NCBI GenBank assembly: GCA_021772935.1
Contig: JAJFLA010000008.1
Location: 124,001 to 188,000, forward strand
Origin: Gammaproteobacteria bacterium
GTDB lineage: Bacteria; Pseudomonadota; Gammaproteobacteria; Xanthomonadales; SZUA-36
DNA: 64,000 bases
Direction of reading: 5' to 3'
Part shown: positions 6,685 through 52,652 of the stretch, piece by piece
Layout: each line of letters begins with the position of its first letter
Numbering within the stretch: the first letter of the stretch is position 1
Position numbers and translations under genes: made by a program
Notes under the pieces: model-generated
What the model was told of the DNA's origin: nothing
What the model saw: only the letters and a program-made list of their open reading frames with translations
Databases searched by the model: none

Positions 6685-6773
6685 ATGCAAAAGGCCAAGA
6701 AAAATGGGCTGAAGCGAACCTTGTGCGCTGCCCCGAGGATGGACTGGACCGACGGTCATTTTTCGTTAATACC
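6685..6773 (+). pseudogene. dusA: 5' fragment of dusA left by island integration
   Basis: An ATG at 6685 opens a frame whose residues LKRTLCAAPRMDWTDGH align with LSRKLSVAPMMDWTDRH of the intact dusA beginning near 12.9 kb, in the same strand and frame. Similarity stops after about 6770, and the frame runs on to a stop at 6861 without further likeness, overlapping the end of the cytidylyltransferase gene. I read it as the original chromosomal dusA start, cut off from the gene body when the island inserted. Substitutions at usually invariant positions (M to R, R to G) fit a non-functional remnant. Confidence 0.75.
6730..6768 (+). repeat. Left attachment-site repeat (dusA type)
   Basis: The 16-mer GATGGACTGGACCGAC at 6738-6753 is identical to 12967-12982 inside dusA. 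Adjacent blocks (GCCCCGA to the left, CATT and TCGTTA to the right) extend the similarity at the same spacing. The dusA codons for the MDWTD motif are a known integration target for a family of tyrosine integrases. Confidence 0.75.
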
Positions 6774-6810: not shown

Positions 6811-7548
6811 TCAATTCAGGCTTGGAAATTCGCTTCGGTTCAATGCCTCATAGCGGCTTAAATCGCTCATGCTATCAACTTCAAACCAACGATCTTTAAT
6901 CGCAACCACCTTTATGAGTGCACTTTGTTGAAGCATTAGCCTCAGTAACCCAGTCATATCAAGCTGTCTTTGTGCTGGAATCGATAATGCGGACATAAAA
7001 CCAGTTATTTGATGCCAACCCATGGGTGTGATTTTCAATAAACCCATATATTGACCTTCTACACTTTCTACTGAGTGAGCAGGTGCCCCTATTTCCAGTA
7101 AGCGGCCATTGCTGGCTCGAAACGTTTCAGCATCATCCAGTGGGTGCTCAAATCTTAGTTGCCATAGTTCGAACCAGTTTGGATCGTAACTGATCACAAT
7201 ATCGCCGGTGGTTGCTCGCAGTGACCGAACCACGTCAGCGGAGTAAACGATATCGCTGTAGCTGACAACACAGGTTTCCTTTTCAAGCCACGATGATGCT
7301 GCCAACAAGGACGTCACCATGTTGCTATGTGCCCAGTCTGGATTAAAAAAATAGGTCAGATCATGCTTAAAACAATGGGACAGGAATCCGGTAACAATTG
7401 CAATGTCATCAATACCTGCTGCTCGTAATGCATGCAATTGCCATTGAATCAGAGGTGCCCCGTGCAGAATTGTGAAACATTTTGGTTGGTTTTCGGTGAG
7501 TTGGCCTAAGCGTTTGCCGCGGCCTGCGGCCAGAATGATACCTTTCAT
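6811..7548 (-). CDS. Nucleotidyltransferase, probable CTP:phosphoglutamine cytidylyltransferase (Cj1416-like)
   Basis: This 245-residue protein has the N-terminal nucleotidyltransferase signature ILAAGRGKRLGQLT followed by QPKCF. The motif WAHSNMVTSLL (about residues 84-94) is typical of LicC-like cytidylyltransferases, which form CDP-activated small molecules. The acidic metal site is probably in VVSYSDIVYS. On its own it would be annotated as a choline-phosphate or sugar-phosphate nucleotidyltransferase. Beside Cj1417- and Cj1418-like genes, in the same order as in Campylobacter jejuni, the best reading is transfer of CMP from CTP to L-glutamine phosphate. It is last in the operon, overlaps the preceding gene by ATGA, and its 3' end runs into the dusA remnant. 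Confidence 0.75.
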   Translation of the reverse strand: MKGIILAAGRGKRLGQLTENQPKCFTILHGAPLIQWQLHALRAAGIDDIAIVTGFLSHCFKHDLTYFFNPDWAHSNMVTSLLAASSWLEKETCVVSYSDIVYSADVVRSLRATTGDIVISYDPNWFELWQLRFEHPLDDAETFRASNGRLLEIGAPAHSVESVEGQYMGLLKITPMGWHQITGFMSALSIPAQRQLDMTGLLRLMLQQSALIKVVAIKDRWFEVDSMSDLSRYEALNRSEFPSLN

Positions 7549-8177
7549 ATAAAGCCCTCAAAAATAAACATCAGGGTTTCAATATGCTTGCTTCGCATTC
7601 TTTCCTCTCGTTCCGGGTGCCACATGACGCCATAAATGGGTAAAACATCATGCTGAATGGCCATAATCACATTATCCGTAGACTTCGCGATTGTTTCGAG
7701 AGGTGGTCGACTCAAGTAGCTGCCTAGTTGATGAAAAACCTGCACTGGTTTCAGGCTGCGGAAGAAATTGGTTATTTGCGCATCCCCAACGACCTTCAAT
7801 TGTTTTTTCACGCCAATATGGTCTGGTACGAGCTCAAGTGGTTGTTGAAAGTAATGTTGGATTAACTGCATGCCTCTACATACACCCAGAACAGGTTTTT
7901 GATGTTTGATAGCCCACTCAAGCATATAGCGCTCGACATCATCGCGTGCCGAACTGTCGCCACCAAATGCCACTAATGAATTTCCCCCTGTCAGCAACAA
8001 GCCATCGAAATGATCGTGTTCTAATAACGACTTTACACAGTGGAGATTATTACTGACCAGAATCGGTAGCAATTTGGCAGCCAGCATGAGGTCTACCCAA
8101 CGTTGATCCAGGGCGTCTCGCTGCTCAAGATGGCTAGAAATAAAATCAACACGCTGAGTAGTCAGTATTTTTTTCAT
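7545..8177 (-). CDS. Class I glutamine amidotransferase-like hydrolase, probable gamma-glutamyl-CDP-amidate hydrolase (Cj1417-like)
   Basis: This is a 210-residue peptidase C26/GATase1 domain with a full catalytic triad: Cys100 in GVCRGMQ, His187 and Glu189 in MWHPERE. The DGLLLTGG oxyanion loop is present near residue 60. There is no synthetase partner domain, so it acts as a free gamma-glutamyl hydrolase. In the Campylobacter pathway Cj1417 hydrolyses gamma-glutamyl-CDP-amidate to release CDP-phosphoramidate (cytidine diphosphoramidate) and glutamate, and this gene occupies the same position between the kinase and cytidylyltransferase genes. Both ends overlap neighbours by four bases. A general gamma-glutamyl-GABA hydrolase (PuuD-like) is the alternative by sequence alone. 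Confidence 0.78.
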   Translation of the reverse strand: MKKILTTQRVDFISSHLEQRDALDQRWVDLMLAAKLLPILVSNNLHCVKSLLEHDHFDGLLLTGGNSLVAFGGDSSARDDVERYMLEWAIKHQKPVLGVCRGMQLIQHYFQQPLELVPDHIGVKKQLKVVGDAQITNFFRSLKPVQVFHQLGSYLSRPPLETIAKSTDNVIMAIQHDVLPIYGVMWHPEREERMRSKHIETLMFIFEGFI

Positions 8178-10531
8178 TGTAATCGGTAAACGATTTTCTG
8201 TTCACAGTCGAGCGTTAACAATTTCGCTTTTGAACATTGATGAAATAAGGCCTCTCCAATGCCGATCACAGCAGGTAAACCTAACTCAGCGGCACGGATA
8301 GCCATATGAGAATTACAACCACCATAAAGGGTTATTAAACCCACAATGCGATGGGTGAATAACCAGTCATGCCCTGGATCAGCGTACGCCACGATTACTA
8401 TTTTCCCCGCTAATTGACCGGATAGCGCTCTTGAGTCCGGCAATAAATGCATAACCTGTGCTGTGACCCGTTTAAGTGTGATGAAATTAGGTTGTTGTGG
8501 TTGGATTTCGAAGCAATCAATATCGCTTGCCTGGGTGATAAGTGGCGGCAGAATGAGGGAGCGGGTTACGGTAAATTGATGTTGGGCTTTTGCCACTAGA
8601 TCCAATGCTGCGTCTGCGCTGGATAATCGGAGCATCTGATTGATTTTTAGAAACGCCGTGTCTTGCCTTTCAAGTTGATACTGTTGACCCAGTTTTTGAC
8701 ACAACAGAAGAATTTCACTTAAAGTCTGGCTGAATATAAATTTTGCTTTTTCCCGCCACTCAATTGCTTGCCTGATAAAACTTATGAACTCACTTGCTGT
8801 GAATTCGTACTCATGTTGCTTTAACAACACCTCTATTTGGGTTTCCTGTTTTTTGTTTAAAACAAACAAAGAACCCTTTTTACAATGAGGAATAGAATTC
8901 CAGCAAAAATAGTCATCTGGGATTTCGTCGTAACGCGGAGACAATAAATCATAGGTACCGGGGCGCATATGCCCATATTTTTGCAGAAAGTGGTTTCGGC
9001 TGCTTGTCTTGATAGCATGTATTAAGTCGCTACTCACTGTAGACAAAGACCGCATAAATAGAACTTGATTTTCAGCGGATAAAACGCCTCGGTTTACCAG
9101 AGATTGTAAAAAGTGCACGGCCAGAAAAGCGGTTCTGGCAAGACCCGCAAACGGACGGGTTCCATATTCCCGACATAGTGTGAGCAGGCTCCTGAGTTTA
9201 TTTTTTTCATCAAGCTGGCTGCTCATGATTTGCTTGTGAAGCACTGGAAGTTGCTGCACTTTTTGAATTTCGTGCAACCATAAACCCTGGTTTTTATCAA
9301 TAATTTTGCGTGTCAAATCAACCAGTGAGTTTTGCAGCAAATTACAATCATTTTTGGAAAAGCCATATTTTAATAAAGTCTGTAATGCCTGGTTCAGGCT
9401 AAAGTGATCCGAGGCCAGCACAACTTTGAACTCAACCTTATCATGCCATTGTGGATTGTTTTTTAATCGATGGAGATAAAACGTTACCAACCGAGTAGCC
9501 AGGTCATCGGGCAATTGCTTCGGAATAAAAGAGTTAAAGCTGGCCCTGATGTCAATATACGGCATACCGCAAACATCTAGCATCAAGGGAATACCACGTA
9601 CATCACGATAACCATAATCGAAACGTTGTTGTGCCCAGACTGTATCCGTCACCAACTGTTGATACAGCGAGTACGCTAGCGGTTTCGGCCGTAGCCCTAT
9701 GATTTCAGCAGGGTTCCAATCCGGCATAACACCCCACAAATTGTCTTGACCCAGGCACTGATGGCTTTTCTGACAGGCCTGCTTGAATCGTTGCTTCAAT
9801 TGTGTGAGTTCATGCTTTTGTTTAATAATGGTTACCGGCCTCTCTGCTGGTAATACCAATGGCCTCACCTGCAATAAAATAAGTTCATCATCAGAGGTGA
9901 CGATGAACTCCACATCGATAGCATCATTTTCAAACAGGTCTTCAAGTTCTTTGAGTAGGCTTAGCAGTTGTTTCTTCCAGCCACTCAAATCCGGCTCTGC
10001 TGATTTGGCGATATAGGTCAATTTCAGTCGTTGACCAAGACCTTGAGTCACAAAGTGACCAGAATTTGATTCATCATCATAATTAATGACGTAATAAGGG
10101 CTTGTTTGACCAGGTTCGTAACTGAATGCAACACCACTGAGCCGGATATGTCTAACCATGGGCTGTATCAAAACTTGATGGTCTGGATCGTCATCACCGT
10201 ATGATTTGATCAGCAATCGGACTGCCGCTTCGATCGCTTCAATTCCTTGCACATCTGCTATCGACAAAAATTGACCGGCCATTGAGTGTTGATGGTGATC
10301 TTCAGTCCGGGCGCTGCTACGCACAATGACGCTCTGGGAAAGCCATTCTGCTTGCAGTCCCAAATTCTCCCATTGCCCGTCTGCGTCAAACCAGGCTTTC
10401 AAATTGAAATGAAGTTGCGGTAACACCTTGGCAGAAAGCAATGTGCCTTGTAGCCTTTGTAGAGTTTCGGCTTTTCCTGAGAATTGAAGCTTAGCCATGA
10501 AAGGTTTTAACTTCGAAACCGAGCTACCCAT
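8174..10531 (-). CDS. PEP-synthase-like phosphotransferase, probable L-glutamine kinase (Cj1418-like)
   Basis: This 785-residue protein (774 if the ATG at 10498 is used, which starts at MAKLQFSGKAE and may be the better start) has three parts. At the N terminus is an ATP-grasp PPDK/PEP-synthase domain with VIVRSSARTED and SMAGQF, and DDELILLQVRP near residue 220. The middle, about 400 residues long, has no strong motif I recognise. At the C terminus is a swivelling phosphohistidine domain with GGCNSHMAI (His742 from the first ATG). The large PEP/pyruvate TIM barrel of true PEP synthases is absent, so PEP synthesis is unlikely. This is the layout of Campylobacter Cj1418, which phosphorylates the side-chain amide of L-glutamine, the first step of phosphoramidate synthesis. 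It overlaps the hydrolase gene by ATGA. Confidence 0.8.
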   Translation of the reverse strand: MGSSVSKLKPFMAKLQFSGKAETLQRLQGTLLSAKVLPQLHFNLKAWFDADGQWENLGLQAEWLSQSVIVRSSARTEDHHQHSMAGQFLSIADVQGIEAIEAAVRLLIKSYGDDDPDHQVLIQPMVRHIRLSGVAFSYEPGQTSPYYVINYDDESNSGHFVTQGLGQRLKLTYIAKSAEPDLSGWKKQLLSLLKELEDLFENDAIDVEFIVTSDDELILLQVRPLVLPAERPVTIIKQKHELTQLKQRFKQACQKSHQCLGQDNLWGVMPDWNPAEIIGLRPKPLAYSLYQQLVTDTVWAQQRFDYGYRDVRGIPLMLDVCGMPYIDIRASFNSFIPKQLPDDLATRLVTFYLHRLKNNPQWHDKVEFKVVLASDHFSLNQALQTLLKYGFSKNDCNLLQNSLVDLTRKIIDKNQGLWLHEIQKVQQLPVLHKQIMSSQLDEKNKLRSLLTLCREYGTRPFAGLARTAFLAVHFLQSLVNRGVLSAENQVLFMRSLSTVSSDLIHAIKTSSRNHFLQKYGHMRPGTYDLLSPRYDEIPDDYFCWNSIPHCKKGSLFVLNKKQETQIEVLLKQHEYEFTASEFISFIRQAIEWREKAKFIFSQTLSEILLLCQKLGQQYQLERQDTAFLKINQMLRLSSADAALDLVAKAQHQFTVTRSLILPPLITQASDIDCFEIQPQQPNFITLKRVTAQVMHLLPDSRALSGQLAGKIVIVAYADPGHDWLFTHRIVGLITLYGGCNSHMAIRAAELGLPAVIGIGEALFHQCSKAKLLTLDCEQKIVYRLQ

Positions 10532-11265
10532 GCTCGGCTTGTGTAAGGTGTTTCAATGGTTTTTGTCGGTTGACCATGAAGAATTTTGGCTATGTTCTGA
10601 GTGATATCAGCCAACTTTCCACCCGCCTGTCGTTGTAGGGTGGCATGTGAGTACCAGGCACCCAGTACGTCATCAATAGCTTGTGTTACCAGCATTGAGC
10701 TTTCGAAGTACTCTATCTGGGAAAACAAGCCACTTTGCTCTATAAACGCTCGCTGGTCCTGCCTTCTGAGACCATAATCATAGCTTGGGAGGTTTTCCTT
10801 AATACAGGCTTCAATACTTTGTTGTAATGGATTGTCCAGATCCCGATGATTCCAGATCGCCATAAACCAACCATTAGGTTTACAGATGCGCAGTGACTCT
10901 ATCAAGGCAGTTGTACGGTCAACGACATTAAAAGAAGAACCAAAACTGACCATGTCAAAGGTATTGCCAGGTAATAGGGAGTTCTCTGCAGTTGTATTTA
11001 CCCAAGTGATATTTTGATTATTAAGGGTACGTTGCAGACCAAGCTGATGCATGGCCAGGTTCGGTTCCAGCGCTTGTACACGTAAATGCCTCCTGGCTAA
11101 TAAAATTGTTAGATTGGCCGTACCCGCTCCCATATCACATACACGGTCATTTGATTGCAGGCCCGTGAAATCGATAATCTTGTCAATGATTGCTTGTGGA
11201 TAGTTTGGTCTTTTGTGATAGGAGCTTGCCAGTTGTGTGTAATCCCACACCATTGAGTCTTTCAT
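10507..11265 (-). CDS. Class I SAM-dependent methyltransferase of the phosphoramidate cluster
   Basis: This 252-residue protein has SAM-binding motif I (CDMGAGTANL, about residues 43-52), an acidic motif II end (ALEPN) and a post-I FDMVSFGSSFNVVD stretch, as in Methyltransf_11 proteins. The in-frame Met at residue 5 is an alternative start. It overlaps the kinase gene upstream by ATGA. In Campylobacter two methyltransferase-like genes (Cj1419, Cj1420) sit immediately upstream of Cj1418, the same relative position as here, and are thought to methylate the phosphoramidate oxygen. By analogy this enzyme would add the O-methyl group, before or after transfer. The substrate is inferred from context only. 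Confidence 0.7.
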   Translation of the reverse strand: MKDSMVWDYTQLASSYHKRPNYPQAIIDKIIDFTGLQSNDRVCDMGAGTANLTILLARRHLRVQALEPNLAMHQLGLQRTLNNQNITWVNTTAENSLLPGNTFDMVSFGSSFNVVDRTTALIESLRICKPNGWFMAIWNHRDLDNPLQQSIEACIKENLPSYDYGLRRQDQRAFIEQSGLFSQIEYFESSMLVTQAIDDVLGAWYSHATLQRQAGGKLADITQNIAKILHGQPTKTIETPYTSRAWVARFRS

Positions 11266-11765
11266 AGCGTCTTCAACAAAAGTTGTACTAATTCTTCAAC
11301 TGACTTGTCTCCGTTATTGGATAAGACAATGTCAGGCTTCTTAGGAAGCTCTGGATTCAAGTCACACCCAACTACATTTTTTATACGGTTATGTGCATAA
11401 TCGCTATACAAGTTATTTTGATCCCTTTTTTGTAATACTGAAAAAGAGACTTCAAGGTAAATCTCAATATAATTTGTGACATGTTTGCGATTCCATGCTC
11501 TCACGTCATCAAACATGGATATTGTTGCGCAGATAACATCGACGTTTTGGCTCGTGAGCAAATGACATAGCCGTGCATATTGCATCGCAAGTTGATGACG
11601 GTCATTCATTTGGTATTGCTCACCCGCGGCAAAAACTTTCCGCAAGGAACTACCATCCAGATAAACGAGACCAGGGGTATGAGGTTTAAGGGTCTCAAAA
11701 AGTAGATGTGCCAGACTGCTTTTCCCGGCGCCTGCAAGTCCGGTTATCCAGTAGAGCCGCCCCAT
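11262..11765 (-). CDS. APS-kinase-family enzyme, probable CDP-phosphoramidate 3'-kinase (Cj1415-like)
   Basis: This is a 167-residue P-loop kinase with Walker A GLAGAGKSS at residues 9-17, then LDGSSLR at 36-42 where adenylylsulfate kinases have LDGDNVR, and the CysC-like helix YARLCHLLTSQNVDVICATI. It would normally be annotated cysC. However, no sulfate assimilation gene (cysD, cysN, cysH) is nearby, and the Asp-Asn of the APS-binding loop is replaced by Ser-Ser. Campylobacter Cj1415 belongs to this family and phosphorylates the ribose 3'-OH of cytidine diphosphoramidate. The start overlaps the sulfotransferase-like stop by one base (TAATG). Confidence 0.72.
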   Translation of the reverse strand: MGRLYWITGLAGAGKSSLAHLLFETLKPHTPGLVYLDGSSLRKVFAAGEQYQMNDRHQLAMQYARLCHLLTSQNVDVICATISMFDDVRAWNRKHVTNYIEIYLEVSFSVLQKRDQNNLYSDYAHNRIKNVVGCDLNPELPKKPDIVLSNNGDKSVEELVQLLLKTL

Positions 11766-12748
11766 TAATCTAGCGAACCTCGAATGTAATGTCGACAGGA
11801 GTCCAGTTGTTGAAAAAACCTATCTTGTTTTTGTTGCTCCATGCTGTTTTGATCCTTTTCTGGATCAATAGCACTGATCAAATCGCTGATACGTTTGTCG
11901 CTGACTTGAGTTGGACTGGATTGTTCTCGCGCGTCAGCATAATTGGTGTAGCCCAACCATTGATAAATGGGATCAAAATCTGAGCCAATACAATCATGCA
12001 TCATGGGCGTATAACGTTGTTGATACTCAAAAGCCGTGCCGGTGTAGTTAAATCTTCTTTCCAATAGCCCGCGCTTTTCCAGCCGATCTTCAATGTTCTT
12101 GAGGACAGAAAAATCCGAATGGGCAAGTGCTCGATTAATCTGGTCCTCTCCAGCCTCAACGCTTATGAAATCGAGAACTTTTTTCAATGTTTGTTTGGCA
12201 TCAGCTTTATAGTCTTCAAAACGAATAACTAAATGATCATAATTGGAAAGATAATTTTTCCAGAGTTGGAGAAAAAGAAGTTGGTATTCACGGAAACTAA
12301 CAGGGTAATGAAAATAACGCGAATGTACAAAAGCCTCGAATGTTAAATTAAAAGCCGGATCATTGTGTTTGGCTCTACGCCAGTGTGAGTAAAGCGCATC
12401 TCGTGGATCACGCACAAATAATATCAATTGGCGTTTGTTCTCATAAGCTAGCGGCCATTGATGACGAAAACAAGCCGCGTGCTTAGGATTGAATTGATAT
12501 TCATGCAGGTATTGCAAAGCAGGTAGTGTTTGTTTCCATGGTAGCTGTCTGGCTGTGTATTGGTAATGGAATGGTGCCAGGCGCTGCCACTCATTTTTGG
12601 TTTCAATATCCCAGGGTTTCCAAACTGGAATATTCAACTCCAAAAAACAGTTTGCCAGCCATGCGACACCACAAGGTAGCTCCGGGGAGATAACATCAAA
12701 GGTAAAATCGGGGTAATCTATTGCACAGGCCGTTGGCATTGGTACCAT
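11765..12748 (-). CDS. Sulfotransferase-fold protein, candidate phosphoramidate transferase
   Basis: This 327-residue protein is the first gene of the operon. The 3'-phosphate-binding motif of PAPS-dependent sulfotransferases is clear (FVRDPRDALYSHW, residues 111-123, Arg113 and Ser121). The 5'-phosphosulfate loop is only partly kept: SPELPCGVAWL at 21-31 has the Pro, Gly and Trp-Leu of the usual YPKSGTTWL but not its Lys. A protein that recognises a 3'-phosphonucleotide with a changed 5' group would fit transfer of phosphoramidate from 3'-phospho-CDP-amidate made by the preceding enzymes. This is inference; ordinary sulfation is the alternative. AAAGG lies 11 bases upstream of the ATG at 12748. 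No signal peptide is seen, so it acts in the cytoplasm. Confidence 0.7.
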   Translation of the reverse strand: MVPMPTACAIDYPDFTFDVISPELPCGVAWLANCFLELNIPVWKPWDIETKNEWQRLAPFHYQYTARQLPWKQTLPALQYLHEYQFNPKHAACFRHQWPLAYENKRQLILFVRDPRDALYSHWRRAKHNDPAFNLTFEAFVHSRYFHYPVSFREYQLLFLQLWKNYLSNYDHLVIRFEDYKADAKQTLKKVLDFISVEAGEDQINRALAHSDFSVLKNIEDRLEKRGLLERRFNYTGTAFEYQQRYTPMMHDCIGSDFDPIYQWLGYTNYADAREQSSPTQVSDKRISDLISAIDPEKDQNSMEQQKQDRFFQQLDSCRHYIRGSLD

Positions 12749-12877: not shown

Positions 12878-13924
12878 TTGAAATTGATCAAAAAACCCTT
12901 AAAAACAACTGGCAATGTGGATAAATATCGAGACGTCTTAAGCAGGAAGTTGAGCGTTGCCCCGATGATGGACTGGACCGACCGACATTGTCGTTATTTC
13001 CATCGTTTGCTGGCACCGTCGGCCTTGTTATATACAGAAATGGTGACTACCGGTGCCATCATCCACGGCGATGCAGATCGTTTTCTTGCCTACAACCCGG
13101 AAGAACAACCGCTGGCCTTGCAACTGGGTGGTAGCGATCCCGAAGATCTGGCTGCTTGTGCCCGGATTGCTCAGCAACGTGGTTTTGCTGAAATAAATTT
13201 GAATGTTGGCTGCCCGTCGGACCGCGTTCAACGTGGTCGTTTTGGGGCTTGTCTGATGCTCGAACCAGAACTGGTCAGGGACTGCATGTTGGCCATGCTG
13301 GAGGCCGTCGATATTCCGGTGACGATCAAGACTCGCCTGGGTGTGGATGATCATTATAGTTACCAATATATGTCAGATTTTGTCGGTCGGGTGGCGGAGT
13401 CAGGTTGTTCGGTCTTTATCATGCATGCCCGCAAGGCGATGCTTGCTGGGCTAAGTCCGAAACAGAATCGTGATGTGCCACCGTTAAATCATGACTGGGT
13501 GTACCGCTTGAAACAGGCGTCGCCAGAGTTGGAGATTGTCATCAATGGAGGTATTGATTCGATTGAAGCAGTGAATAAGCACCTCGAACAGGTAGATGGT
13601 GTCATGCTGGGCCGAGCGGCCTATCATACGCCTTGGTTGCTAGCTGAGTGTCAGCAACAGCTTTTTGAGAAATCTGCCCCCAACCGACGCCAGGATATCA
13701 TCGAGCTAATGAGTGTTTACCTCGAACGCCAGGTTAGAAAGGGCACAGCAGTGAAGCATGTCAGTCGGCATTTACTTGGTCTGTTTCAGGGTTTGCCGGG
13801 TGCAAAGGCCTGGCGTCGCTACCTGAGTGAAAATGCATTCAAAGATGACAACAATATACAATTACTGCACCAGGGCGTGGCGGCAATGCAGGTCGTCGGT
13901 GGTGAAGCCGTCCAGGACCCTTAA
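12878..13924 (+). CDS. dusA: tRNA-dihydrouridine synthase A
   Basis: This FMN enzyme reduces U20/U20a in the tRNA D-loop. The APMMDWTDRH motif is at residues 28-37, the NADPH/FMN barrel motif LQLGGSDPEDLA at about 81-92, catalytic Cys112 in NVGCPSDRV, and TIKTRLG and NGGID follow in order. The length is about 348 residues, normal for DusA. There is no in-frame ATG before the conserved core: the candidates are TTG at 12878 and GTG at 12917, whereas the displaced fragment at 6685 keeps an ATG. The 5' end and promoter were therefore probably replaced on integration of the island, and expression may differ from the ancestral gene. The next gene follows 17 bases downstream. Confidence 0.92.
   Translation: MKLIKKPLKTTGNVDKYRDVLSRKLSVAPMMDWTDRHCRYFHRLLAPSALLYTEMVTTGAIIHGDADRFLAYNPEEQPLALQLGGSDPEDLAACARIAQQRGFAEINLNVGCPSDRVQRGRFGACLMLEPELVRDCMLAMLEAVDIPVTIKTRLGVDDHYSYQYMSDFVGRVAESGCSVFIMHARKAMLAGLSPKQNRDVPPLNHDWVYRLKQASPELEIVINGGIDSIEAVNKHLEQVDGVMLGRAAYHTPWLLAECQQQLFEKSAPNRRQDIIELMSVYLERQVRKGTAVKHVSRHLLGLFQGLPGAKAWRRYLSENAFKDDNNIQLLHQGVAAMQVVGGEAVQDP
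12959..12996 (+). repeat. Right attachment-site repeat inside dusA
   Basis: This is the partner of the 6730-6768 copy. The shared 16-mer is at 12967-12982 and encodes MDWTD of the intact DusA. The sequence to its left, including the present start region of dusA, was probably carried in by the island. Confidence 0.75.
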
Positions 13925-41574: not shown

Positions 41575-42092
41575 ACCAGGTCTGGATCACCGTCTACGCC
41601 AAGTCGGGGGCGACCTGACGGTCCAATTACAAGCGACTTGGCACTTGCAGCTCCCCTGAGGTCACAGAGTGTGAAAACTCCGTTTAAACCACTGATCGCA
41701 ATACCATTATTGGCATAAATAACACGTGTTTGGTTGAATGTCAGAGTGTTACTTCCAGCTATGACGCCTTGTACACGTAAAATTTCCTCGCCATCAACAG
41801 CACCATCAAAGTTGCTATCAACGAAAACGATCCAACCATTCTGCCAGTTGCCTGTACAGCTGGAACCATTACTGCTCTGGCATATTGTTATATTGTTATT
41901 GCGTTTTACTGCTTCACTTCGGGCAAGACTGAGTGAGGTTTGTAGCGTGTTAATTTGTGTTGCCATCCTGGTGTTTTGTATGGCTACCGTGAAACTTGGT
42001 ACTGAGACCGCAATCAGAATGCCAGCAATAGATATCGTCACGATCAGCTCGATAAGTGTTAATCCACTGGTTCGTATGTGAGTCTTAGTCAT
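41562..42092 (-). CDS. fimT: Minor pilin FimT (GspH-like)
   Basis: This 176-residue protein is the first gene of the minor pilin operon. Its cleavage motif GLTLIELIVTISI is followed by LQTSLSLARSEAVKRNNNITICQS and WQNGWIVFVDSN, the hallmarks of GspH/FimT proteins. The sequence before it, up to the sigma factor gene, is unassigned and should contain the operon promoter. Confidence 0.9.
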   Translation of the reverse strand: MTKTHIRTSGLTLIELIVTISIAGILIAVSVPSFTVAIQNTRMATQINTLQTSLSLARSEAVKRNNNITICQSSNGSSCTGNWQNGWIVFVDSNFDGAVDGEEILRVQGVIAGSNTLTFNQTRVIYANNGIAISGLNGVFTLCDLRGAASAKSLVIGPSGRPRLGVDGDPDLVCPS

Positions 42093-42694
42093 TTTTCAGC
42101 ACTCTATTATTATTCACTTCTAACGATATACACCCCCACTGGTATAGCCAGGATAAGAACCCTGATAGTGGGTGCCGAAGCGAATTGTGTTGTGTGAGTT
42201 GGTGTTTCGAGGGTGAATGAGAGCGTATGACTGGTCCGTAGGGACCCTGATCGACGATGCCAAATCCCTTTGGGAGATCCAAATTGTATCTCTGTAATTC
42301 TGTTGAATTACGAATGTCCATATATGATACCTGGTGCTCACAATAACTGCTTTTCGTTGAAGCTTCGGATTTCCTATCCTCAGCATTCCAACCATGTATC
42401 TCTGACCACTGTGAGCTTACCAGAAAAACGCGTGAATAGAAGGGGTTACAATACCGTTTGTCGGAAATAGTCTACCGTTCACAGAGGTTTTGGTTCAAAA
42501 TTCAATTTTTAATGAATATCCAGGAAAGGTGCAGGGCTGATATGAAACTTACACAAGGCTATTTCGCGTACCGAGCTACTTTTATATGTCACCGATAGAG
42601 CTAATGAAACTGGTGAGCTTCTGGGAATATTGCCTTTGTCCCTCAATAGGCTATAGACTTGATTAACAAAAATTTCAAAGTGATGGGGTAAATA
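42093..42694. other. Intergenic region between fimT and the sigma factor gene
   Basis: This 602-base region lies between divergent operons. Short open frames exist on the minus strand (42085-42321 and 42120-42395), but they overlap one another, match nothing I recognise and lack a clear ribosome binding site. A small hairpin, GGTCC-GTAG-GGACC, occurs near 42235. Promoters for the pilin operon and the sigma factor gene must lie here, and a decayed gene or small RNA is possible but not shown. Confidence 0.5.
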
Positions 42695-43201
42695 ATGGCG
42701 CAAGACATACACGTATTGTTTCCTGAAATCTACGAAGACTTAAAGCGCCTAGCCCGTGTTCAGAGGAGCCGTATTTACGGCAAGAAAAATTTGGGCACCA
42801 AAAGTATTGTGCATGAAGCCTATTTGAATTTAATAAAAAACAATACTGAAGTGAAAAGCAAAAATGAATTGTTCTATCTCACTTCTGTGGTTATGCGTAA
42901 CATCATCATAGACAACGCAAGGGCCTGGAACGCAAAAAAAAGAGGTTCATTTAGCAATGAAATATCACTGGACCAGATCGACTTGATCTCTGCCACCAGG
43001 AGCTCTGAAATTTTAGCGCTGGACGAAGCCCTGACCGACCTCGGAAAAGATGACAAGAGACTGGCAGACAATGTCACCTGTCGTTTTTTTGGTGGCTTGA
43101 CCCTGAAAGAAACATCAAAGGCTCTTAACCTTTCACTGGCGACTGTTAAGCGGGACTGGATACTGGCCAGATCCATACTGGTTCAAAAATTGGCAATATG
43201 A
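42695..43201 (+). CDS. ECF sigma factor, kinase-linked (TIGR02999/ECF43-like)
   Basis: This is a 168-residue sigma factor. Region 2 spans about residues 5-75, with TKSIVHEAYLNLI where ordinary ECF factors have an acidic AEDLVQEVFLRLW-like sequence: the acidic residues just before it are replaced by LGTKS (33-37). Region 4 is at about 110-165, with LTLKETSKALNLSLATVKRDW. No anti-sigma gene is adjacent. The stop overlaps the start of a Ser/Thr kinase gene by four bases. ECF factors of this group in Vibrio depend on threonine phosphorylation in region 2.2 by the neighbouring kinase; Thr35 or Ser37 are the candidates here. GGGG lies eight bases before the ATG. Confidence 0.85.
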   Translation: MAQDIHVLFPEIYEDLKRLARVQRSRIYGKKNLGTKSIVHEAYLNLIKNNTEVKSKNELFYLTSVVMRNIIIDNARAWNAKKRGSFSNEISLDQIDLISATRSSEILALDEALTDLGKDDKRLADNVTCRFFGGLTLKETSKALNLSLATVKRDWILARSILVQKLAI

Positions 43202-45906
43202 CTCCAGAACGGCAAAAAAAGGGACAGAAAATATTTCTTCAAGCCATTGAAAAGAAGAAACAACAAAGACCTGACTATATTCAGAAAACCTGTCTTGATG
43301 ATCCGCAACTACTTGCCTATGTTCAGGATCTGTTGGCAGCAAAAAAAAAATCAGGTGTTTATTTTTCAAATCTGAAAGATTCAGTTTTCCCCTTGAATGA
43401 AATAGAAGAGCATTGCTTCCGCGATTTTCAGGTAGGCCAATATCAGATTTCAAATCTGCTCAAACAAGGTGGTATGGGCAGTATCTTTCTGGCACACCGG
43501 GCCGACGGTGAGTTTGAAAGAGAAGTCATCATAAAGATGATACCTATCGATTTGGATTTTGATCAAAATCAAGTCAGATTTGCCCATGAAAAGGAAATAC
43601 TCGCCGGTTTGATCCACCCGAATATCGTCCAGCTATACGACTCAGGTGTAACCGCAGAAGGACAGTCTTATTTTGTTATGGAGTTGATTAAAGGTAACAA
43701 TATAATACAGTATTGTAACCAACAAAAACTCACTATTAAACAAAGACTTAAATTGTTTGTAGTGATACTTGGCGCAGTACAGTATGCCCATCAGCATTTG
43801 GTGATTCACGGCGATATCAAACCTTCAAATATCATGGTTACTGTAGATGGTCAGGTTAAGTTGCTGGATTTCGGAATCGCAACGCTGGTTCACCAGGAAG
43901 GCCAAAAACCTGAAGCGTATTCAATTGAATATCAGACACCGGAACATGCAAATAAAAGAAGGATCATAACGACCACTGACATTCATCAACTGGGCCAGTT
44001 ATTGTTTGAAATGATATCTGGCACTGAGCCCAGACTGGCAAGGCAAAAGGATTTCAGCTTTCCTCTGCTGCCTGGGCAATTAGCATCGATCCAACAAAAC
44101 TCACCGGAAAGTTTCAATGCTTTACTTAAAAACACAAGCAGCAATAAAACACAATTAAAGTGGTGTTTTAATTCTGCCCTTTACCACATTATCCATAAGG
44201 CATTGAGCCCGGAACCGGGAGATCGTTACGACACGGCCCAGGCTTTTGCCGATGATCTTATAAAATTTGAAAATGGCTATTGTGTTGAGGCACATCCAGG
44301 TAGTCGCGCTTATCGGTTTCAGAGATACCTATACCGGCACCGACTCATGGTTTTTTTAGTCAGTACACTCACCGCCGTATTGGCTGGCTTTACCCTGATG
44401 ACAGCATTACACAACACCGAGTTATCAATCGAAAGAGACAAAGCTGTAACCATTAAAAATTTGCTGGTAGATGTCTTTAGTGTGGCAGATCCCAACAAGA
44501 CACCCGGTCAGGAGCTTACCGCCACTGAAGTGTTGGATACCGGGCTGCAGAGAATCAGGGAAAGGTTCAATGAGCCGACAGAAATTGAAGCTGACCTGTT
44601 GGAAGAAATTGCTCACACCTACCAAAATTTGGGGAACTACACTCAAGCAGCCACGATATTGGAAGATGCCTATCAAATAAGACAATCAATTCAGTCGGAC
44701 GAACAGTTTGTGCTTGCAGGAAGCATGATGCTGTTGGGTGAGAATGAACGGTTGTTGGCTCACTTTGACGATGCAGAGTCATGGCTTGATCAATCACTGG
44801 ATATTTTCGAGCAGGAAAGCGCCACATATTTGGCAGAGATCGCAACGGTTAAAGGCAAGTTAAGCCGGGTTAAAGTCTCAAAAGGTGAATTGGCTGATGC
44901 TGAAAAGATGGCATTAGACGCTACCGAAACACAAAAAGTACTCTATGGCGAAGACCACATTAAGTATGCGCAAAGCCTGAATGATTTGAGTGCTGTTTAT
45001 TTCAGGCAGGGAAAATATAAGCAAGTTGCAGATATTTTATTAATAACAAAAAACGTCAGGGAAAAATTGTGGCAGGAAAAGCCATTACCGATTCTCGATA
45101 AAGATTATGCCACTAATATCAACAACATTGGTTTGGCCTATTATTTGCAGGGAAACCTGACTGACGGTGAGCGCTATTTCCGTCAGGCTATTGACCTCAG
45201 GGAGCAGATTTTTGCTAAGCCGCATCCAGAGCAGGCGCAGTCGTTAACCAACCTGGGCTTGTTGTTAAACGACGCCGGAAGTCCTGATCATGCATTACCA
45301 TATTTAGAACAGGCTTTGACAGTAAGACAGCTCACACTGGAAACGGGACACCCCAGAATCAACGATGCCTGGAATAACCTGGCCATGATCTATCATGAGA
45401 ATTCAGAGTTTTCCAAGGCTGCCGAAATATATCAATCAATCCTTGGCAGTGTCATACAGACGCGGGGAGAAGCGCATCCGCAAACAGCATCTTTGTACAC
45501 CAATATGGCCAATACTCTATTGGAGTTAAATGAATTTCAGAAAGCTTATGACTATTTAAAAAAATCACTCGATTCCCGGCTCAAAACACTACCCGAAGAC
45601 CATTTATATTTATCTTACAGTTACATTGGACTCGGTCGTGCCCAGGTGGCTTTGGGCGATATTCCACACGGCAAAGACCTGATCTTAAAAGGACTATCTA
45701 TACGTGAACAGAAATTGCCGGCTGACCATTGGTTGATAGGAGAGGCATACTATGCCCACGCAATGGTTGCTTTTATCCAGGGTCAAGCTGATTTGGAAAT
45801 GACACAGAATGCCTGTGCCATCCTCAAAGAGAAAAAGGGGGAGTCCAATTACCTGACCCAAAAGTGCTTAGCACTACTGGATCAGATAACTGACAAGCCA
45901 TTATAA
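43198..45906 (+). CDS. Transmembrane Ser/Thr protein kinase with TPR sensor domain
   Basis: This 902-residue protein has a short N-terminal helical region (1-75), then a Hanks-type kinase domain (about 80-360). The Gly loop is KQGGMGS at 89-95, the ATP Lys is probably Lys113, the catalytic loop HGDIKPSN at 204-211 has Asp206, and DFG is at 224-226. A membrane helix follows (MVFLVSTLTAVLAGFTLMTA, about 382-401), and then a C-terminal region of about 500 residues made of tetratricopeptide repeats (LNDLSAVYFRQGKYKQVADI, NNIGLAYYLQGNLTDGERYF). The topology suggests kinase inside and TPR outside. Given the coupled sigma factor gene, that factor is its probable substrate. The stop is convergent, 18 bases from the next gene. 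Confidence 0.88.
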   Translation: MTPERQKKGQKIFLQAIEKKKQQRPDYIQKTCLDDPQLLAYVQDLLAAKKKSGVYFSNLKDSVFPLNEIEEHCFRDFQVGQYQISNLLKQGGMGSIFLAHRADGEFEREVIIKMIPIDLDFDQNQVRFAHEKEILAGLIHPNIVQLYDSGVTAEGQSYFVMELIKGNNIIQYCNQQKLTIKQRLKLFVVILGAVQYAHQHLVIHGDIKPSNIMVTVDGQVKLLDFGIATLVHQEGQKPEAYSIEYQTPEHANKRRIITTTDIHQLGQLLFEMISGTEPRLARQKDFSFPLLPGQLASIQQNSPESFNALLKNTSSNKTQLKWCFNSALYHIIHKALSPEPGDRYDTAQAFADDLIKFENGYCVEAHPGSRAYRFQRYLYRHRLMVFLVSTLTAVLAGFTLMTALHNTELSIERDKAVTIKNLLVDVFSVADPNKTPGQELTATEVLDTGLQRIRERFNEPTEIEADLLEEIAHTYQNLGNYTQAATILEDAYQIRQSIQSDEQFVLAGSMMLLGENERLLAHFDDAESWLDQSLDIFEQESATYLAEIATVKGKLSRVKVSKGELADAEKMALDATETQKVLYGEDHIKYAQSLNDLSAVYFRQGKYKQVADILLITKNVREKLWQEKPLPILDKDYATNINNIGLAYYLQGNLTDGERYFRQAIDLREQIFAKPHPEQAQSLTNLGLLLNDAGSPDHALPYLEQALTVRQLTLETGHPRINDAWNNLAMIYHENSEFSKAAEIYQSILGSVIQTRGEAHPQTASLYTNMANTLLELNEFQKAYDYLKKSLDSRLKTLPEDHLYLSYSYIGLGRAQVALGDIPHGKDLILKGLSIREQKLPADHWLIGEAYYAHAMVAFIQGQADLEMTQNACAILKEKKGESNYLTQKCLALLDQITDKPL

Positions 45907-45924
45907 AACCATATAAAGCCGTAA

Positions 45925-48900
45925 TTATTCTGGTGCGGTTATCGTCCACACATGATTGCTTGAACCACTGAATCCACGTGAGTACTCCCCATCGTTGATG
46001 TCCATGGTAAGCGCGGTGTTTTTACCCATTTTTCGAATTAGTCTAAGTTCAATGACGTTAGCACCGCCCTTCAGCGTGGCATTGTGGCAGGTGGAACCAC
46101 CCTCCGGGTTGGTTATGCTGCCGATAGCGGTGCCGTTGACCAACAGACTGAAGTGGTCGTCCAGTATGCTGTTTGAATCGGTCACACATATTGCAACATT
46201 GCGACTGGAGACATGACCCGTGCCTTCTTCTTCGGTTTCAACATCGGTCAAATCACCGCCATCAGATTCATCGGGACCGGCAACCGTTGTATTTGATTCA
46301 CAGGCGGTGTCGGCAGAGTTCGGACTAAATCCATCTTTACATTTACAGGCCGCCAAACCGGTAGATATATCTAAATAAGCTTCACCTCCAAGACCCATTG
46401 AACTGCAATCATGATCTGCGACTGCCGCAGCCTCAGAGCTCATACAACTACCTTTGCTTGTTGATATGGTCAAGCCGGAATCGATGCACTTACACACCAC
46501 ACCACCAATAAAGTCATCGTATATGGCAGTGGTGCCCTTTAACGCCGAGCAATCCGTTGAAGCCACCGCTTCATCTTCACTGTAGGCACAGGTTTTGAGC
46601 GTAGACGACCATTTTTTGCTACCCACACATTCACAGCCCCAGCTGTTTTTTTCACTATCGAAATGGGGGGCGCTGCCTGGATAGGACGTACAATCCACAT
46701 CACTTGAAGACAAGCCAGCAAGGCTGATACATCGTTTCTGAGTATCTGACCATTCAAGTGCTCCGGGGCATTCACACTGCTTATTCACATAGGTTGTGCC
46801 TGGATAATCAGCACACTCTGCGCTTACCAGCGCAGCTTTGCATTGATTATGCTCGTCAAATTCATAACCGCTGATGCACTCACACATTGCTTTGCCAGTC
46901 GCACCATCCCATACAGCTTTTGCTTTCCCATAGGCTGAACAATTGGCGTTGGCTAGCGCATCTTCTCGCTCACTGGCACAGCGTTTTAATGTATCGGACC
47001 AATCAGTATCGCCTTCGCAGACACAACCTGCTGATAGCGTTTCTTCACTCCATACCGCCTTGGTACCCGGATAAGCGCTACAGTCGGCAGTTGAAACATC
47101 ACCGCTGCTACTAGGTGCTAAACAGGCATCTCCCATCCAGTGCTCATCGCTATTTTTCTGGTCTGGATTGTAATCATCCGGGCAATTATCTTCGACATTG
47201 AGTTTGCCATCATTATCAATATCGGTATCACAGACATTACCAATACCATCTGAATCCTTATCCAATTGATCAGAATTTTTTATTATTTCACAGTTGTCTG
47301 TGGCATTCTCAATACCATCACCATCTTTATCAGTATCACAGGCATCTCCAATACCATCCTTGTCGAGATCATCCTGTGATGGGTTGGAAAGGAGTGGGCA
47401 GTTATCCTCTATGTCAACAAAACTATCACTGTCGCTGTTGTTATCACAGGCATCCCCTTTACCATCGCCGTCAATATCTTCCTGCTCATAATTTTTCACC
47501 GTCGGGCAATTGTCCTGAAAATCAAGGATCAGATCATTGTCATAATCTGTATCACAAACGTCTCCAATCTTGTCCTTATCAGTATCCAGTTGATTTTTAT
47601 TGGCGACCGCAGGGCAGTTATCTGTGGCATCCGGAATAGAGTCGTTATCACTGTCCTGCATACCGCTGTCTTCATCTGAACCAAAATGATTGCAGCCATA
47701 TAGGTTGCCTTTATAAGGGCTTAAAACATAGGCTCTCAATTGAGCCTCACCCCAGGTCATACCCGAGCCCACCAACTCATATTTAGGTTTTCCAGCATAT
47801 TTGGTGCTATCACACTCAGCCGTTAATATATTGAAGCATTCTGGTGGGTCACCAAATGATTTGTAGCGCCAAACACAATATGGACCTCCCGAACCAGCTT
47901 CCACTACTGCTGGCGGTCTTATACCTGAGCCCGAACTGGCATCCAGACCCGGTGGTAATATCGAAATAGTGACTGGGATTTTGACTCTTTCCCCGGCATG
48001 CTTAACTATGATCGTCATAATTGTCAGGGTTTCGGGCACTGGAATTCTGGTTCTAATTATTAATAAAAACTCGTTGTAGGGAGATTTGGGTGATTCGGTC
48101 TGGTGATCAAAGGTTACATCCAATAGTTCTTTATCGTATTCAACTTTTAATTCAACCTTCTCATGCTCTACATATGCATTATGTACCCGCACATAACAGG
48201 TTTCCGGGTACAGTACATCGTTCGGCGACAGCTCAAATGAATCACCGCAGGTAAATTCAACACTAAAATCAGCTAAAACTTCCGGTATTTCATTATCTGG
48301 TACGTCACAATGCTCTTTCCATTCCTTACTGTTTTTATCTAATTCTGCGCATTTTTTCCTGGCTATAATTTCGTCATAAACAGGTGGCTTTTTTTCATCC
48401 TTTTTTGTTTCTTTCTTGCCGGGTAATGGCGGTTTTGTTTCTTTCTCTTTTTTATCGTCACCTGAAAAATTAAATGCAATTGATTCGGATTTATGGTTTC
48501 TGGGTAAAGCACTGTCTTCCAGTTTGAAAACTACCAGGCCTGCATCTGCGGCTTTATCAAAACTAAAGTTAATTCGATGTATTCCTGTTGAATTTATTTT
48601 TACATCAACCAACTTGCCCTTACTATTTCTATATTGAAGATTAAACGGCGGCTTGCCTTTTCTTATTGATAATTCCACTGTTTCTGTCGAACCAGCGCTG
48701 ACCCAGCGAGTTAGGTTACCTAATATGTAAAAATCTATTGGCACTGCAAGGTCTTTAGCGAGTTCAAGCTGTAATTCGCGTAGCAATTTTGTCAGTCGCT
48801 TACGTTCTGCTATCAAACTATCCTGTTGTGCTTGCAAACCCTTTAAAACACCATCCTTGCCAGTCAGCACCCTGTGTCGGTAATGCCCTTGATCATCAAT

Positions 48901-49317
48901 ATATTGACTCCATATCTTTGATTTTTCTTCACCAATATCCAGATTTGTTCGCCGCTCCAGGCCTAGCCTTCGCCAATCACTTCTACTATTTGGATAACCG
49001 AGGCTTTCTTTTCTCCATTTCTGATAGGCTTCTTCCTTCTTCAGATCAACTTTTGCCAAATCTTCATTCAATTGCTGATGTCGACCCAGGATTTTAAATA
49101 GCCCTATCAGTTGTCGATCTGCTACGTTTGTTACTTTTTTCTTTAGATGCGTATCAATTTTGCCACCGAGTTTCCATAAATCACTTTTATTCTTTTGCAG
49201 CGCTTGCAGGACGATATCAATCCTTGCTTCCAGCGAAGCATCTGCGTGCACTATTGGTATATAAAATGCCAAACAAAGCCAGTTTAAAATTATGCAACTC
49301 AGTAAATATTTTTTCAT
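45925..49317 (-). CDS. Large secreted protein with thrombospondin type 3 and Cys-rich repeats
   Basis: This 1130-residue protein has a signal peptide (LLSCIILNWLCLAFYIPIVHA). In order come a charged helical region (about 25-200); a beta-rich region with a Lys/Glu/Pro linker (about 200-350); another domain (350-540); five to six thrombospondin type 3 calcium-binding repeats of the form DxDxDxxxDxxDNCP (about 550-735); six Cys-rich units of about 36-40 residues with a C-x(14-20)-C-x-C-x(8-14)-C pattern (about 744-1010); and a C-terminal beta-sandwich-like domain of about 90 residues with one Cys pair. It is probably a surface or periplasmic calcium-stabilised rod. No family for the whole protein is known to me. 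It is last in the lpoB operon, 17 bases after the preceding gene. Confidence 0.8.
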   Translation of the reverse strand: MKKYLLSCIILNWLCLAFYIPIVHADASLEARIDIVLQALQKNKSDLWKLGGKIDTHLKKKVTNVADRQLIGLFKILGRHQQLNEDLAKVDLKKEEAYQKWRKESLGYPNSRSDWRRLGLERRTNLDIGEEKSKIWSQYIDDQGHYRHRVLTGKDGVLKGLQAQQDSLIAERKRLTKLLRELQLELAKDLAVPIDFYILGNLTRWVSAGSTETVELSIRKGKPPFNLQYRNSKGKLVDVKINSTGIHRINFSFDKAADAGLVVFKLEDSALPRNHKSESIAFNFSGDDKKEKETKPPLPGKKETKKDEKKPPVYDEIIARKKCAELDKNSKEWKEHCDVPDNEIPEVLADFSVEFTCGDSFELSPNDVLYPETCYVRVHNAYVEHEKVELKVEYDKELLDVTFDHQTESPKSPYNEFLLIIRTRIPVPETLTIMTIIVKHAGERVKIPVTISILPPGLDASSGSGIRPPAVVEAGSGGPYCVWRYKSFGDPPECFNILTAECDSTKYAGKPKYELVGSGMTWGEAQLRAYVLSPYKGNLYGCNHFGSDEDSGMQDSDNDSIPDATDNCPAVANKNQLDTDKDKIGDVCDTDYDNDLILDFQDNCPTVKNYEQEDIDGDGKGDACDNNSDSDSFVDIEDNCPLLSNPSQDDLDKDGIGDACDTDKDGDGIENATDNCEIIKNSDQLDKDSDGIGNVCDTDIDNDGKLNVEDNCPDDYNPDQKNSDEHWMGDACLAPSSSGDVSTADCSAYPGTKAVWSEETLSAGCVCEGDTDWSDTLKRCASEREDALANANCSAYGKAKAVWDGATGKAMCECISGYEFDEHNQCKAALVSAECADYPGTTYVNKQCECPGALEWSDTQKRCISLAGLSSSDVDCTSYPGSAPHFDSEKNSWGCECVGSKKWSSTLKTCAYSEDEAVASTDCSALKGTTAIYDDFIGGVVCKCIDSGLTISTSKGSCMSSEAAAVADHDCSSMGLGGEAYLDISTGLAACKCKDGFSPNSADTACESNTTVAGPDESDGGDLTDVETEEEGTGHVSSRNVAICVTDSNSILDDHFSLLVNGTAIGSITNPEGGSTCHNATLKGGANVIELRLIRKMGKNTALTMDINDGEYSRGFSGSSNHVWTITAPE

Positions 49318-49334
49318 AAGAAAAACCTGAAAAT

Positions 49335-50243
49335 TTAGCCTTTAGGGGGAAGAACCCGTTTTTTCTTTCTTACCGGAGCCTTGGGGTCGGGGTTGCCAGG
49401 TAATTGGTTGATGTTCCCGGAGACTTTGCTGAAAGGTCTGGACAGTACCTTGGGTAATAACTGGTCTGCTATTTCATAGCCCGCATCAGCATGGAATAAC
49501 AGCACGGTTTGCTGCTTCTCGTAACCATTACTACCCGCCACCCATTTCTCATCAATTTTGTAGTATTCGGAACCTTGTCCAGTGTGTTGGGACAGGGTCT
49601 CAAATGTGTCCATACGGGTGACGTTAACCTGTACTTTATCGACCTTGGTACCCAGTACATCAACAAAACCTGCATCGATTATTTCTATCAGGATATCTAC
49701 ATTTGCGAGGACTGCATCGGCCTCCACTTCACGTAAATCTGTGCTTCTGTCGATGTTGCCGGACAGCTCATTCTTTCTCTGTGCCTGACGTAAGATGGAA
49801 TCATAATTAAGCATCCCGATGTTTGCGGCCTGCAGGTAATCACTAAAGCCCTTATAAAATGCCTCCATGCCAGGGCTTATATTGATATTGATCGCTTTTC
49901 GGTCTTCAGTCATACGATATGTGTCGCGTGTATCTTTAGCCTGATTTCGGCCTTGATAAGCACGATTCATGGTACTTATCGTGTCCCTTGTATCAGCCTG
50001 CCATTCAGAAAGATCATTACCCAGGCTGCGACCGAGCAAAATTAGAATTCTCGGACTACCTGCCTGCTGGTATTGCCTGTTGATACTTGTACTCACTGGT
50101 TGGGGGTACTGATTACTGACAGCTTGCCGGGCTGACAGACTATCTTCAGCCGGGGTTTCTTCGATCACTTCCGGCATATCATTACGATACTGTGCCTGAG
50201 CGAGAGAAGTGCATAACATCAACACTACAACTACAAATTTCAT
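49335..50243 (-). CDS. Secreted protein of unknown function in the lpoB operon (possibly CsgG/LpoB-like)
   Basis: This 302-residue protein has a signal peptide cut near AQAQ (residue 18). The body has a beta start (PRILILLGRSLG), a helical middle and the segment ADAVLANVDILIEIIDAGFVDV, followed by VNVTRMDTFETLSQ. The order (strand, helix, amphipathic ADxLIEI strand, then a strand turning a corner) recalls the CsgG/LpoB fold, but no decisive motif is present. The C-terminal tail is Lys/Pro rich (KAPVRKKKRVLPPKG). It overlaps ycfL by four bases. Confidence 0.65.
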   Translation of the reverse strand: MKFVVVVLMLCTSLAQAQYRNDMPEVIEETPAEDSLSARQAVSNQYPQPVSTSINRQYQQAGSPRILILLGRSLGNDLSEWQADTRDTISTMNRAYQGRNQAKDTRDTYRMTEDRKAININISPGMEAFYKGFSDYLQAANIGMLNYDSILRQAQRKNELSGNIDRSTDLREVEADAVLANVDILIEIIDAGFVDVLGTKVDKVQVNVTRMDTFETLSQHTGQGSEYYKIDEKWVAGSNGYEKQQTVLLFHADAGYEIADQLLPKVLSRPFSKVSGNINQLPGNPDPKAPVRKKKRVLPPKG

Positions 50244-50716
50244 AACTGCTCTCTTAGTTCGATCAAAAAGGAATCTGGCATAGGCTGAAGGATAGAAGAT
50301 TCCTGATAGTTACCGATTGAACGGGCTGACAGGTGCATTCTTTTCCATTGTGTCACCGGTTCTGCCAACACTTGGTTGCGGTCAAGGTATTGGGTTCTCG
50401 CCTGTAAAATAATGGGGTAATCAGTGCAGTTAACGATACGAGCGTACACATTTAACTGCTCACTCTGAGTGCGCATGGCTTTTACATCCTGCACTACAAC
50501 ACGGCGTAATAAAGCTGTATCGGTAATACTGACTGTCGATAAGGCGATGGGGTGCATGCTACCGATAATGGCGGGTACCAACTGACCATACCCTCGCGGG
50601 GCTGAACCATAGGGTGCATTCTTGAAATCACAGGAAACAAAGGTCACAGGAGGCGCCTGTTGGCTTGCACATGCTGATATTGAAATAATAATGATTAAGA
50701 TGATGAGATTTTTCAT
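50240..50716 (-). CDS. ycfL: YcfL-like lipoprotein
   Basis: This 158-residue outer-membrane lipoprotein has lipobox ISAC (Cys16). The domain that follows has DVKAMRTQSEQLNVYARIVNCTDYPI and RTQYLDRNQVL, typical of the YcfL/DUF1425 family, in which a beta-sandwich is encoded next to lpoB in E. coli. It is located between the COG3014-like gene and an unknown gene in the same operon, 14 bases after the former. Confidence 0.78.
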   Translation of the reverse strand: MKNLIILIIIISISACASQQAPPVTFVSCDFKNAPYGSAPRGYGQLVPAIIGSMHPIALSTVSITDTALLRRVVVQDVKAMRTQSEQLNVYARIVNCTDYPIILQARTQYLDRNQVLAEPVTQWKRMHLSARSIGNYQESSILQPMPDSFLIELREQL

Positions 50717-50730
50717 GTTGTATCCACCTT

Positions 50731-51990: not shown

Positions 51991-52007
51991 GTTCTTTACC
52001 CCACACA

Positions 52008-52652
52008 TTATCGGTAGACCGCGTCATCTTGGGCGAATTTTGAAAACTCAAAATCATCCGCCCAAACGATGGTTCCATACTCCAGATCCACTAATTCAAA
52101 AGTGATCTGTGAATAACGTTGAATGGCGCCGGTGTTACGATCTCTGGCGTCGAGCGATTTGATGTTGCCGGTCAAACGATAGTCACCGCCTGCAGTCGCC
52201 TTGGTTAAGCCGGAAGTACCCTGGTCAACAACCCCACCCCGTTTCAGTTGCCTTTCCTGGTCAATCATTCCAATCGATTGGCGGGCGACAAACATCATTC
52301 GGCCTTGCGATGCGCGTATTAAACCTGTTCTTAAACGATCAACTATCAGGTTCTTATTGATGGCCTGAGAGCTTTGGTTCTCAAAATATTTCGCATCCAT
52401 GATGATTCTCGGTGGCTTGCTTTTGTTGTTCAAAATGCCACTGGAAATAATGCTGCGCATCATCTGTTCAGTCATCGACATGATGTCCTGTGATTCAACA
52501 CCTACACCACTGACGATCCCTCGGGAGCCCGGATCAACATAGGTTGTTGGTCTGCCAGCGACGTTATCAATGGGTCGATAGTTGCCACCACCACCACAGC
52601 CTGAGACAATGCCGAGAAGGAAAATGGAAACAATAATTCTGCTGATTCGCAC
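52008..52652 (-). CDS. lpoB: Penicillin-binding protein activator LpoB
   Basis: This 214-residue outer-membrane lipoprotein has lipobox VSGC (Cys19) and a Gly-rich linker, then the LpoB/CsgG-like domain with SQDIMSMTEQMMRSII, PRIIMDAKYFENQSSQ, LIVDRLRTGLI and YRLTGNIKSLD, ending in VDLEYGTIVWADDFEFSK. In E. coli LpoB stimulates PBP1B from the outer membrane. It is first of a five-gene leftward operon that ends with the large thrombospondin-repeat protein. Confidence 0.87.
   Translation of the reverse strand: MRISRIIVSIFLLGIVSGCGGGGNYRPIDNVAGRPTTYVDPGSRGIVSGVGVESQDIMSMTEQMMRSIISSGILNNKSKPPRIIMDAKYFENQSSQAINKNLIVDRLRTGLIRASQGRMMFVARQSIGMIDQERQLKRGGVVDQGTSGLTKATAGGDYRLTGNIKSLDARDRNTGAIQRYSQITFELVDLEYGTIVWADDFEFSKFAQDDAVYR

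Follow-up and report, generated by a model that had tools for sequence, protein, structure and literature searches.

What might a compact run of six genes in a gammaproteobacterium be for, if its predicted products resemble the enzymes that make the methyl phosphoramidate (MeOPN) donor of Campylobacter jejuni? The modification was described as Campylobacter-only in 2019 (PMC6429109), a review of 2022 regarded the glutamine kinase of the pathway as specific to C. jejuni (PMC9561416), and a survey of phosphoramidates covers Campylobacter only (PMC3907429); that survey cites phosphoramidate on the LPS of Xanthomonas and Shewanella without genes. A paper on the Legionella longbeachae capsule mentions phosphoramidate for C. 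jejuni only. The literature surveyed contains no explanation of methyl phosphoramidate transfer or of the 3'-phosphate of the donor. The six genes lie at positions 6811-12748 of the analyzed stretch of 64,000 nucleotides, referred to here as the window. Judged by its sequence, the cluster would quite probably be a self-contained phosphoramidate cassette, which combines a donor pathway with transfer by a sulfotransferase homologue and was acquired as cargo of a dusA-type island.

Gene cluster and dusA island

All six reading frames are intact, located on the minus strand, and overlapping or nearly touching, in agreement with an earlier sequence-only reading of this DNA. The junctions measure -1, -4, -4, and -4 nt, with the remaining one, between the methyltransferase and glutamine kinase genes, being -25 nt from the first ATG or approximately +8 nt from an internal ATG at about 10498. 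In the order of transcription, the genes encode a sulfotransferase-superfamily protein (ST; 11765-12748, 327 amino acids), an APS-kinase homologue (APSK; 11262-11765, 167 amino acids), a SAM methyltransferase (MTase; 10507-11265, 252 amino acids), an L-glutamine kinase homologue (GlnK; 8174-10531, 785 amino acids), a free class I amidotransferase (GATase; 7545-8177, 210 amino acids), and a cytidylyltransferase (CTase; 6811-7548, 245 amino acids). The corresponding Pfam domains are Sulfotransfer_1 (PF00685, 1.8e-13) in ST, APS_kinase, Methyltransf_11 (PF08241), GATase/Peptidase_C26 in GATase, and NTP_transf_3 (PF12804, 1.2e-18) in CTase. Five of these protein types had been listed in the earlier reading and are present; the sixth gene, left unnamed there, encodes the divergent sulfotransferase homologue, a likely transferase. 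Searches for RNA elements and for tRNAs found none, and scans for promoters and terminators returned signals at chance level.

According to its sequence, the cluster forms the cargo of a genomic island of the dusA type, about 6.2 kb long and without an integrase, so that the "compact island" of the earlier reading is to be taken literally, as an insertion, flanked by att-like repeats, in the tRNA-modification gene dusA. Islands specific for dusA bring along a new 5' end of that gene, while the old end marks the outer boundary of the element (PMC4482086). In the window, dusA (12878-13924, plus strand) is a resident host gene whose new 5' end comes from the island; its first approximately 20 residues are new, the alignment with most congeners starts only near residue 20, and its N-terminus differs from that of the congener G491. 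The displaced original 5' end, the outer island boundary, is found at 6685-6765 (plus strand, ATG at 6685, translation MQKAKKNGLKRTLCAAPRMDWTDGH) and aligns with the TetR-dusA junction of G491. The direct repeats at 6721-6760 and, inside dusA, at 12950-12989 (both plus strand) are 88% identical over 40 nt (35/40, versus a shuffled maximum of 23/40); two copies occur in the genome itself and one in each of six congeners. An open reading frame for a dusA-associated integrase is not present between the two repeats. The island has a GC content of 43.8%, compared to 48.9% in the remainder of the window. In the congener G441, the cluster is on one contig and dusA on another. A second low-GC stretch, at 42000-53000 of the window, encodes a sigma-factor-like protein, a TPR protein kinase, and a large secreted protein that contains repeats.

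Putative donor enzymes and their distribution

The donor steps proposed here are modelled on the published biochemistry of Cj1415-1418, which yield 3'-phospho-CDP-amidate (PMC11800397). GlnK (Cj1418-like) would phosphorylate the amide nitrogen of L-glutamine; CTase, as a putative CTP:phosphoglutamine cytidylyltransferase (Cj1416-like), would join the phosphoglutamine to CMP to give gamma-glutamyl-CDP-amidate, from which GATase, the candidate hydrolase (Cj1417-like), would strip glutamate. The resulting CDP-amidate would be phosphorylated at its 3'-OH by APSK as CDP-amidate 3'-kinase (Cj1415-like), leading to 3'-phospho-CDP-amidate, a chemical analogue of PAPS. MTase may act as phosphoramidate O-methyltransferase. 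We infer every reaction of this scheme, as well as the use of 3'-phospho-CDP-amidate by ST, the methylation by MTase, and the acceptor.

For GlnK, the assignment is based on a match to NF004508/PRK05849 (870.7 bits, 8.1e-262, cut-off 501; NCBIfam), a family that would include Cj1418, and by profile the protein is far from PEP synthases. As stated in the sequence-only reading, it resembles a PEP synthase without the C-terminal PEP barrel, consisting of PPDK_N and PEP-utilizers domains only, and carries the motif GGCNSHMAI; the phospho-His-type His742 and many residues of the ATP domain are invariant in nine aligned sequences. The GlnK gene of congener G441 (L123:7183-9512) is divided into two overlapping frames by a frameshift or a sequencing error. 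The top NCBIfam family for GATase is NF045546 (gamma-glutamyl-CDP-amidate hydrolase), with 98.6 bits (4.8e-28), which is below the cut-off of 250 and twice the score of the runner-up family at 48.3; it is matched by 16/16 cluster GATases, and the catalytic triad Cys100/His187/Glu189 is invariant across 16 sequences. CTase, for which there is no specific family model, has as its nearest solved structure 1jyk, a CTP:phosphocholine cytidylyltransferase of the LicC type.

APSK matches NF004041/PRK05541 above cut-off (174 bits; NCBIfam). Its 82 cluster relatives share the pattern S-[ML]-F..V..WNR in place of the SP[FY] of canonical enzymes; the canonical CysN/C of the same genome differs from this subfamily. 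At the KGFTG site, cluster APSKs mostly have V, with F found in 2/3 canonical sequences. In APS-kinase structures this Phe stacks on adenine, and its loss in the cluster enzymes would fit a base other than adenine. The window copy itself has Ser at codon 39 (11649-11651), where 82/82 cluster relatives have Asp, and additionally carries K117N; due to both exchanges, this copy may be impaired. In G441, Asp39 is kept. True PEP synthases and CysC enzymes, which the earlier reading had held to speak against its proposal, did not emerge as the relatives by profile; these identities and that of a choline-phosphate cytidylyltransferase were rejected on the basis of the NCBIfam profiles and the APSK subfamily pattern. 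The cluster probably works like the Cj1415-1418 pathway, while equating it with that pathway would rely on profile matches, one of which (GATase) is below cut-off. The earlier reading had gone further, in that the set corresponding to Cj1415-1420 was said to make an O-methyl donor; Cj1415-1418 are indeed matched by family, but this role is not established for MTase, since Cj1419/1420 have no assigned function (PMC11800397).

The prediction that the pathway is more widespread than Campylobacter is borne out by at least 546 GlnK-encoding stretches in species genomes. The best 80 of these belong to Pseudomonas, Aeromonas, Azospirillum, Clostridia, Acidobacteria, Verrucomicrobia, and others; GlnK occurs in many phyla and is not Campylobacter-specific. 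It is present in 10/369 gammaproteobacteria sampled and in 14/200 genomes of the same order. A phage or plasmid origin was rejected, given that GlnK is found in only 14 plasmids, one viral contig, and one phage record (unannotated, faecal). Among 101 GlnK loci, GlnK, GATase, and CTase occur together in 95 and APSK in 84, with relatives of CTase found in 97 and of MTase in 71; the order APSK-MTase-GlnK-GATase-CTase recurs in many unrelated loci. All six genes are found together in the window genome, in six other genomes of the order (G441, G367, G386, G389, G457, and, as two divergent groups, G374), and in the Magnetospirillum MAG L105; except in G441, their order is reshuffled relative to the window. 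In G482 they are split over two places, and in G511 the cluster is fragmentary. The linkage in 95 and 84 of the 101 loci and the recurrence in reshuffled order show that the association is not due to chance.

A divergent sulfotransferase homologue as candidate transferase

The final step, which is the transfer of the phosphoramidate from 3'-phospho-CDP-amidate onto the acceptor, would be catalyzed by ST, combining an altered 5' donor loop with an intact 3'-phosphate site. Its PF00685 match begins only at profile position 88, the N-terminal part being unrecognised, while five sulfotransferases of other type from the same genome match from positions 1-4. The donor loop lacks Lys/Arg in 14/14 members of the ST family and mostly reads S-x-E-[LM]-P-[CSA]-G (P-[CF]-S-G in two members from L106), whereas the ordinary sulfotransferases inspected possess such a residue (PKSGNTW, AKSGRTW, FPKCGRTW, FPRSGSTW). 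The 3'-phosphate-binding motif RDPRD..S is retained. Foldseek matches of the predicted model, which is of low confidence (mean pLDDT 58.8), are PAP-bound sulfotransferases. In a class-wide profile search, family members scored 388-442 bits and all others at most 93. An ST-type gene adjoins the cluster in at least eight further genomes. Order-wide, ten of the 200 genomes contain a strong ST (>90 bits), and 9/10 of these have GlnK, compared to 14/200 overall (hypergeometric 1.7e-11, ignoring relatedness; as the genomes are related, the value overstates independence). The tenth, without a GlnK match, has CTase-APSK-ST at a contig end. The window genome contains an orphan second ST (G000:C44:96109-97008, equal to L152:8095-9009), 66% identical and situated between unrelated genes, which perhaps serves a second acceptor.

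Apart from the genes of the cluster, the family found most often beside GlnK, in 29 loci, is a second, separate sulfotransferase-like one, exemplified by L029:8320-10020, L034:8332-9975, and L047:7233-8384, which are candidate relatives of Cj1421/1422. Its first three members have no Pfam match, 13/18 members match Sulfotransfer_3, and the first 16 structural matches of a predicted model are sulfotransferases. A sulfotransferase-like neighbour occurs in 43/84 loci with APSK versus 3/17 without (p=0.01). Sulfotransferase relatives adjacent to GlnK in very different bacteria would, therefore, occupy the expected place of the phosphoramidate transferase. A formyl-transferase-like neighbour of GlnK is present in ten loci (L030:7887-8609 and nine others).

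GlnK, CTase, and GATase might make a phosphoramidate, with APSK and ST being carried along as an ordinary PAPS sulfation pair, since both are homologous to sulfation enzymes. This is improbable, given that a canonical CysN/C is encoded in the genome already, that SP[FY] is missing from the cluster APSKs, most of which are also without the aromatic residue of KGFTG, and that ST lacks the donor-site Lys/Arg kept by the ordinary sulfotransferases inspected and stays with the GlnK clusters through reshuffling. Re-use of the APS-kinase/sulfotransferase pair for phosphoramidate would be the best reading of these sequences. That the window cluster is decaying cargo no longer yielding a product is unlikely, although somewhat less so; the D39S exchange in APSK, the diverged left repeat of an island devoid of integrase, and the split GlnK of the congener G441 would be in accordance with decay, against which stand six open, closely packed frames.

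A more serious contender, quite possible albeit not favoured, is a Campylobacter-like modification of capsule or LPS, with the same chemistry, a polysaccharide acceptor, and the glycan genes elsewhere in the genome. Known phosphoramidates are located on capsule or LPS, including the LPS of Xanthomonas and Shewanella as cited in PMC3907429, and some other GlnK loci adjoin flagellin genes. However, ST-type six-gene clusters from several families are without obvious glycan genes in the stretches inspected, and an orphan ST is encoded elsewhere in the window genome. In the window, no capsule gene cluster is evident by eye among the open reading frames of the first 22 kb, in line with the earlier reading; the other six-gene clusters are flanked, also by eye, by peptidase, GAPDH, efflux, recN, or sensor-kinase genes. 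Because most of the clusters have no glycan genes in the stretches inspected, the acceptor would likely be a metabolite or else a widespread component of the envelope; the earlier reading, too, had predicted a target not yet described. In four Pseudomonas loci (L072, L076, L078, L095), the GlnK cluster directly follows flgK and flagellin genes, which suggests phosphoramidate on flagellar glycans there.

Summarizing, the evidence leans towards the recruitment of sulfotransferase-fold enzymes as 3'-phospho-CDP-amidate phosphoramidyl transferases, which would be widespread, partly located on mobile islands, and directed at non-capsule acceptors. A transferase of this type, if true, would explain the 3'-phosphate of the donor and would represent a testable enzyme class. 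Due to the occurrence of GlnK in many phyla, modifications of the phosphorus-nitrogen type may be frequent and have escaped notice in NMR and mass spectra. In Campylobacter, MeOPN is a phage receptor, and a mobile phosphoramidate cassette could play a similar role elsewhere.

Comparison with known systems

With the C. jejuni MeOPN donor pathway (Cj1415-Cj1418), the window cluster shares the same four enzyme families, as judged by profile; the C. jejuni gene order methyltransferase-1418-1417-1416 is also the order in the window. In contrast to the C. jejuni locus, which is embedded in a capsule gene cluster, the window cluster is a stand-alone island without an adjoining capsule cluster and includes a sulfotransferase-type gene in its operon. 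The dusA-specific islands (PMC4482086, PMC8409611) have in common with the island in the window that they insert into the 5' region of dusA, with imperfect direct repeats and both new and displaced 5' ends, whereas the island in the window is only about 6.2 kb in size and devoid of the dusA-associated integrase. With PAPS-dependent sulfotransferases (PF00685), ST shares the family, as assigned by profile and Foldseek, and the RDPRD..S motif, but differs from them by a 5'-phosphosulfate loop without Lys/Arg and an N-terminal part outside PF00685. The MeOPN transferases Cj1421/Cj1422 would catalyze the same step as proposed for ST, namely phosphoramidate transfer; with 592-603 amino acids (PMC13317227), they differ in size from ST, with its 327 amino acids, and are close in length to that part of the second sulfotransferase-like family which comprises 550-650 amino acids.
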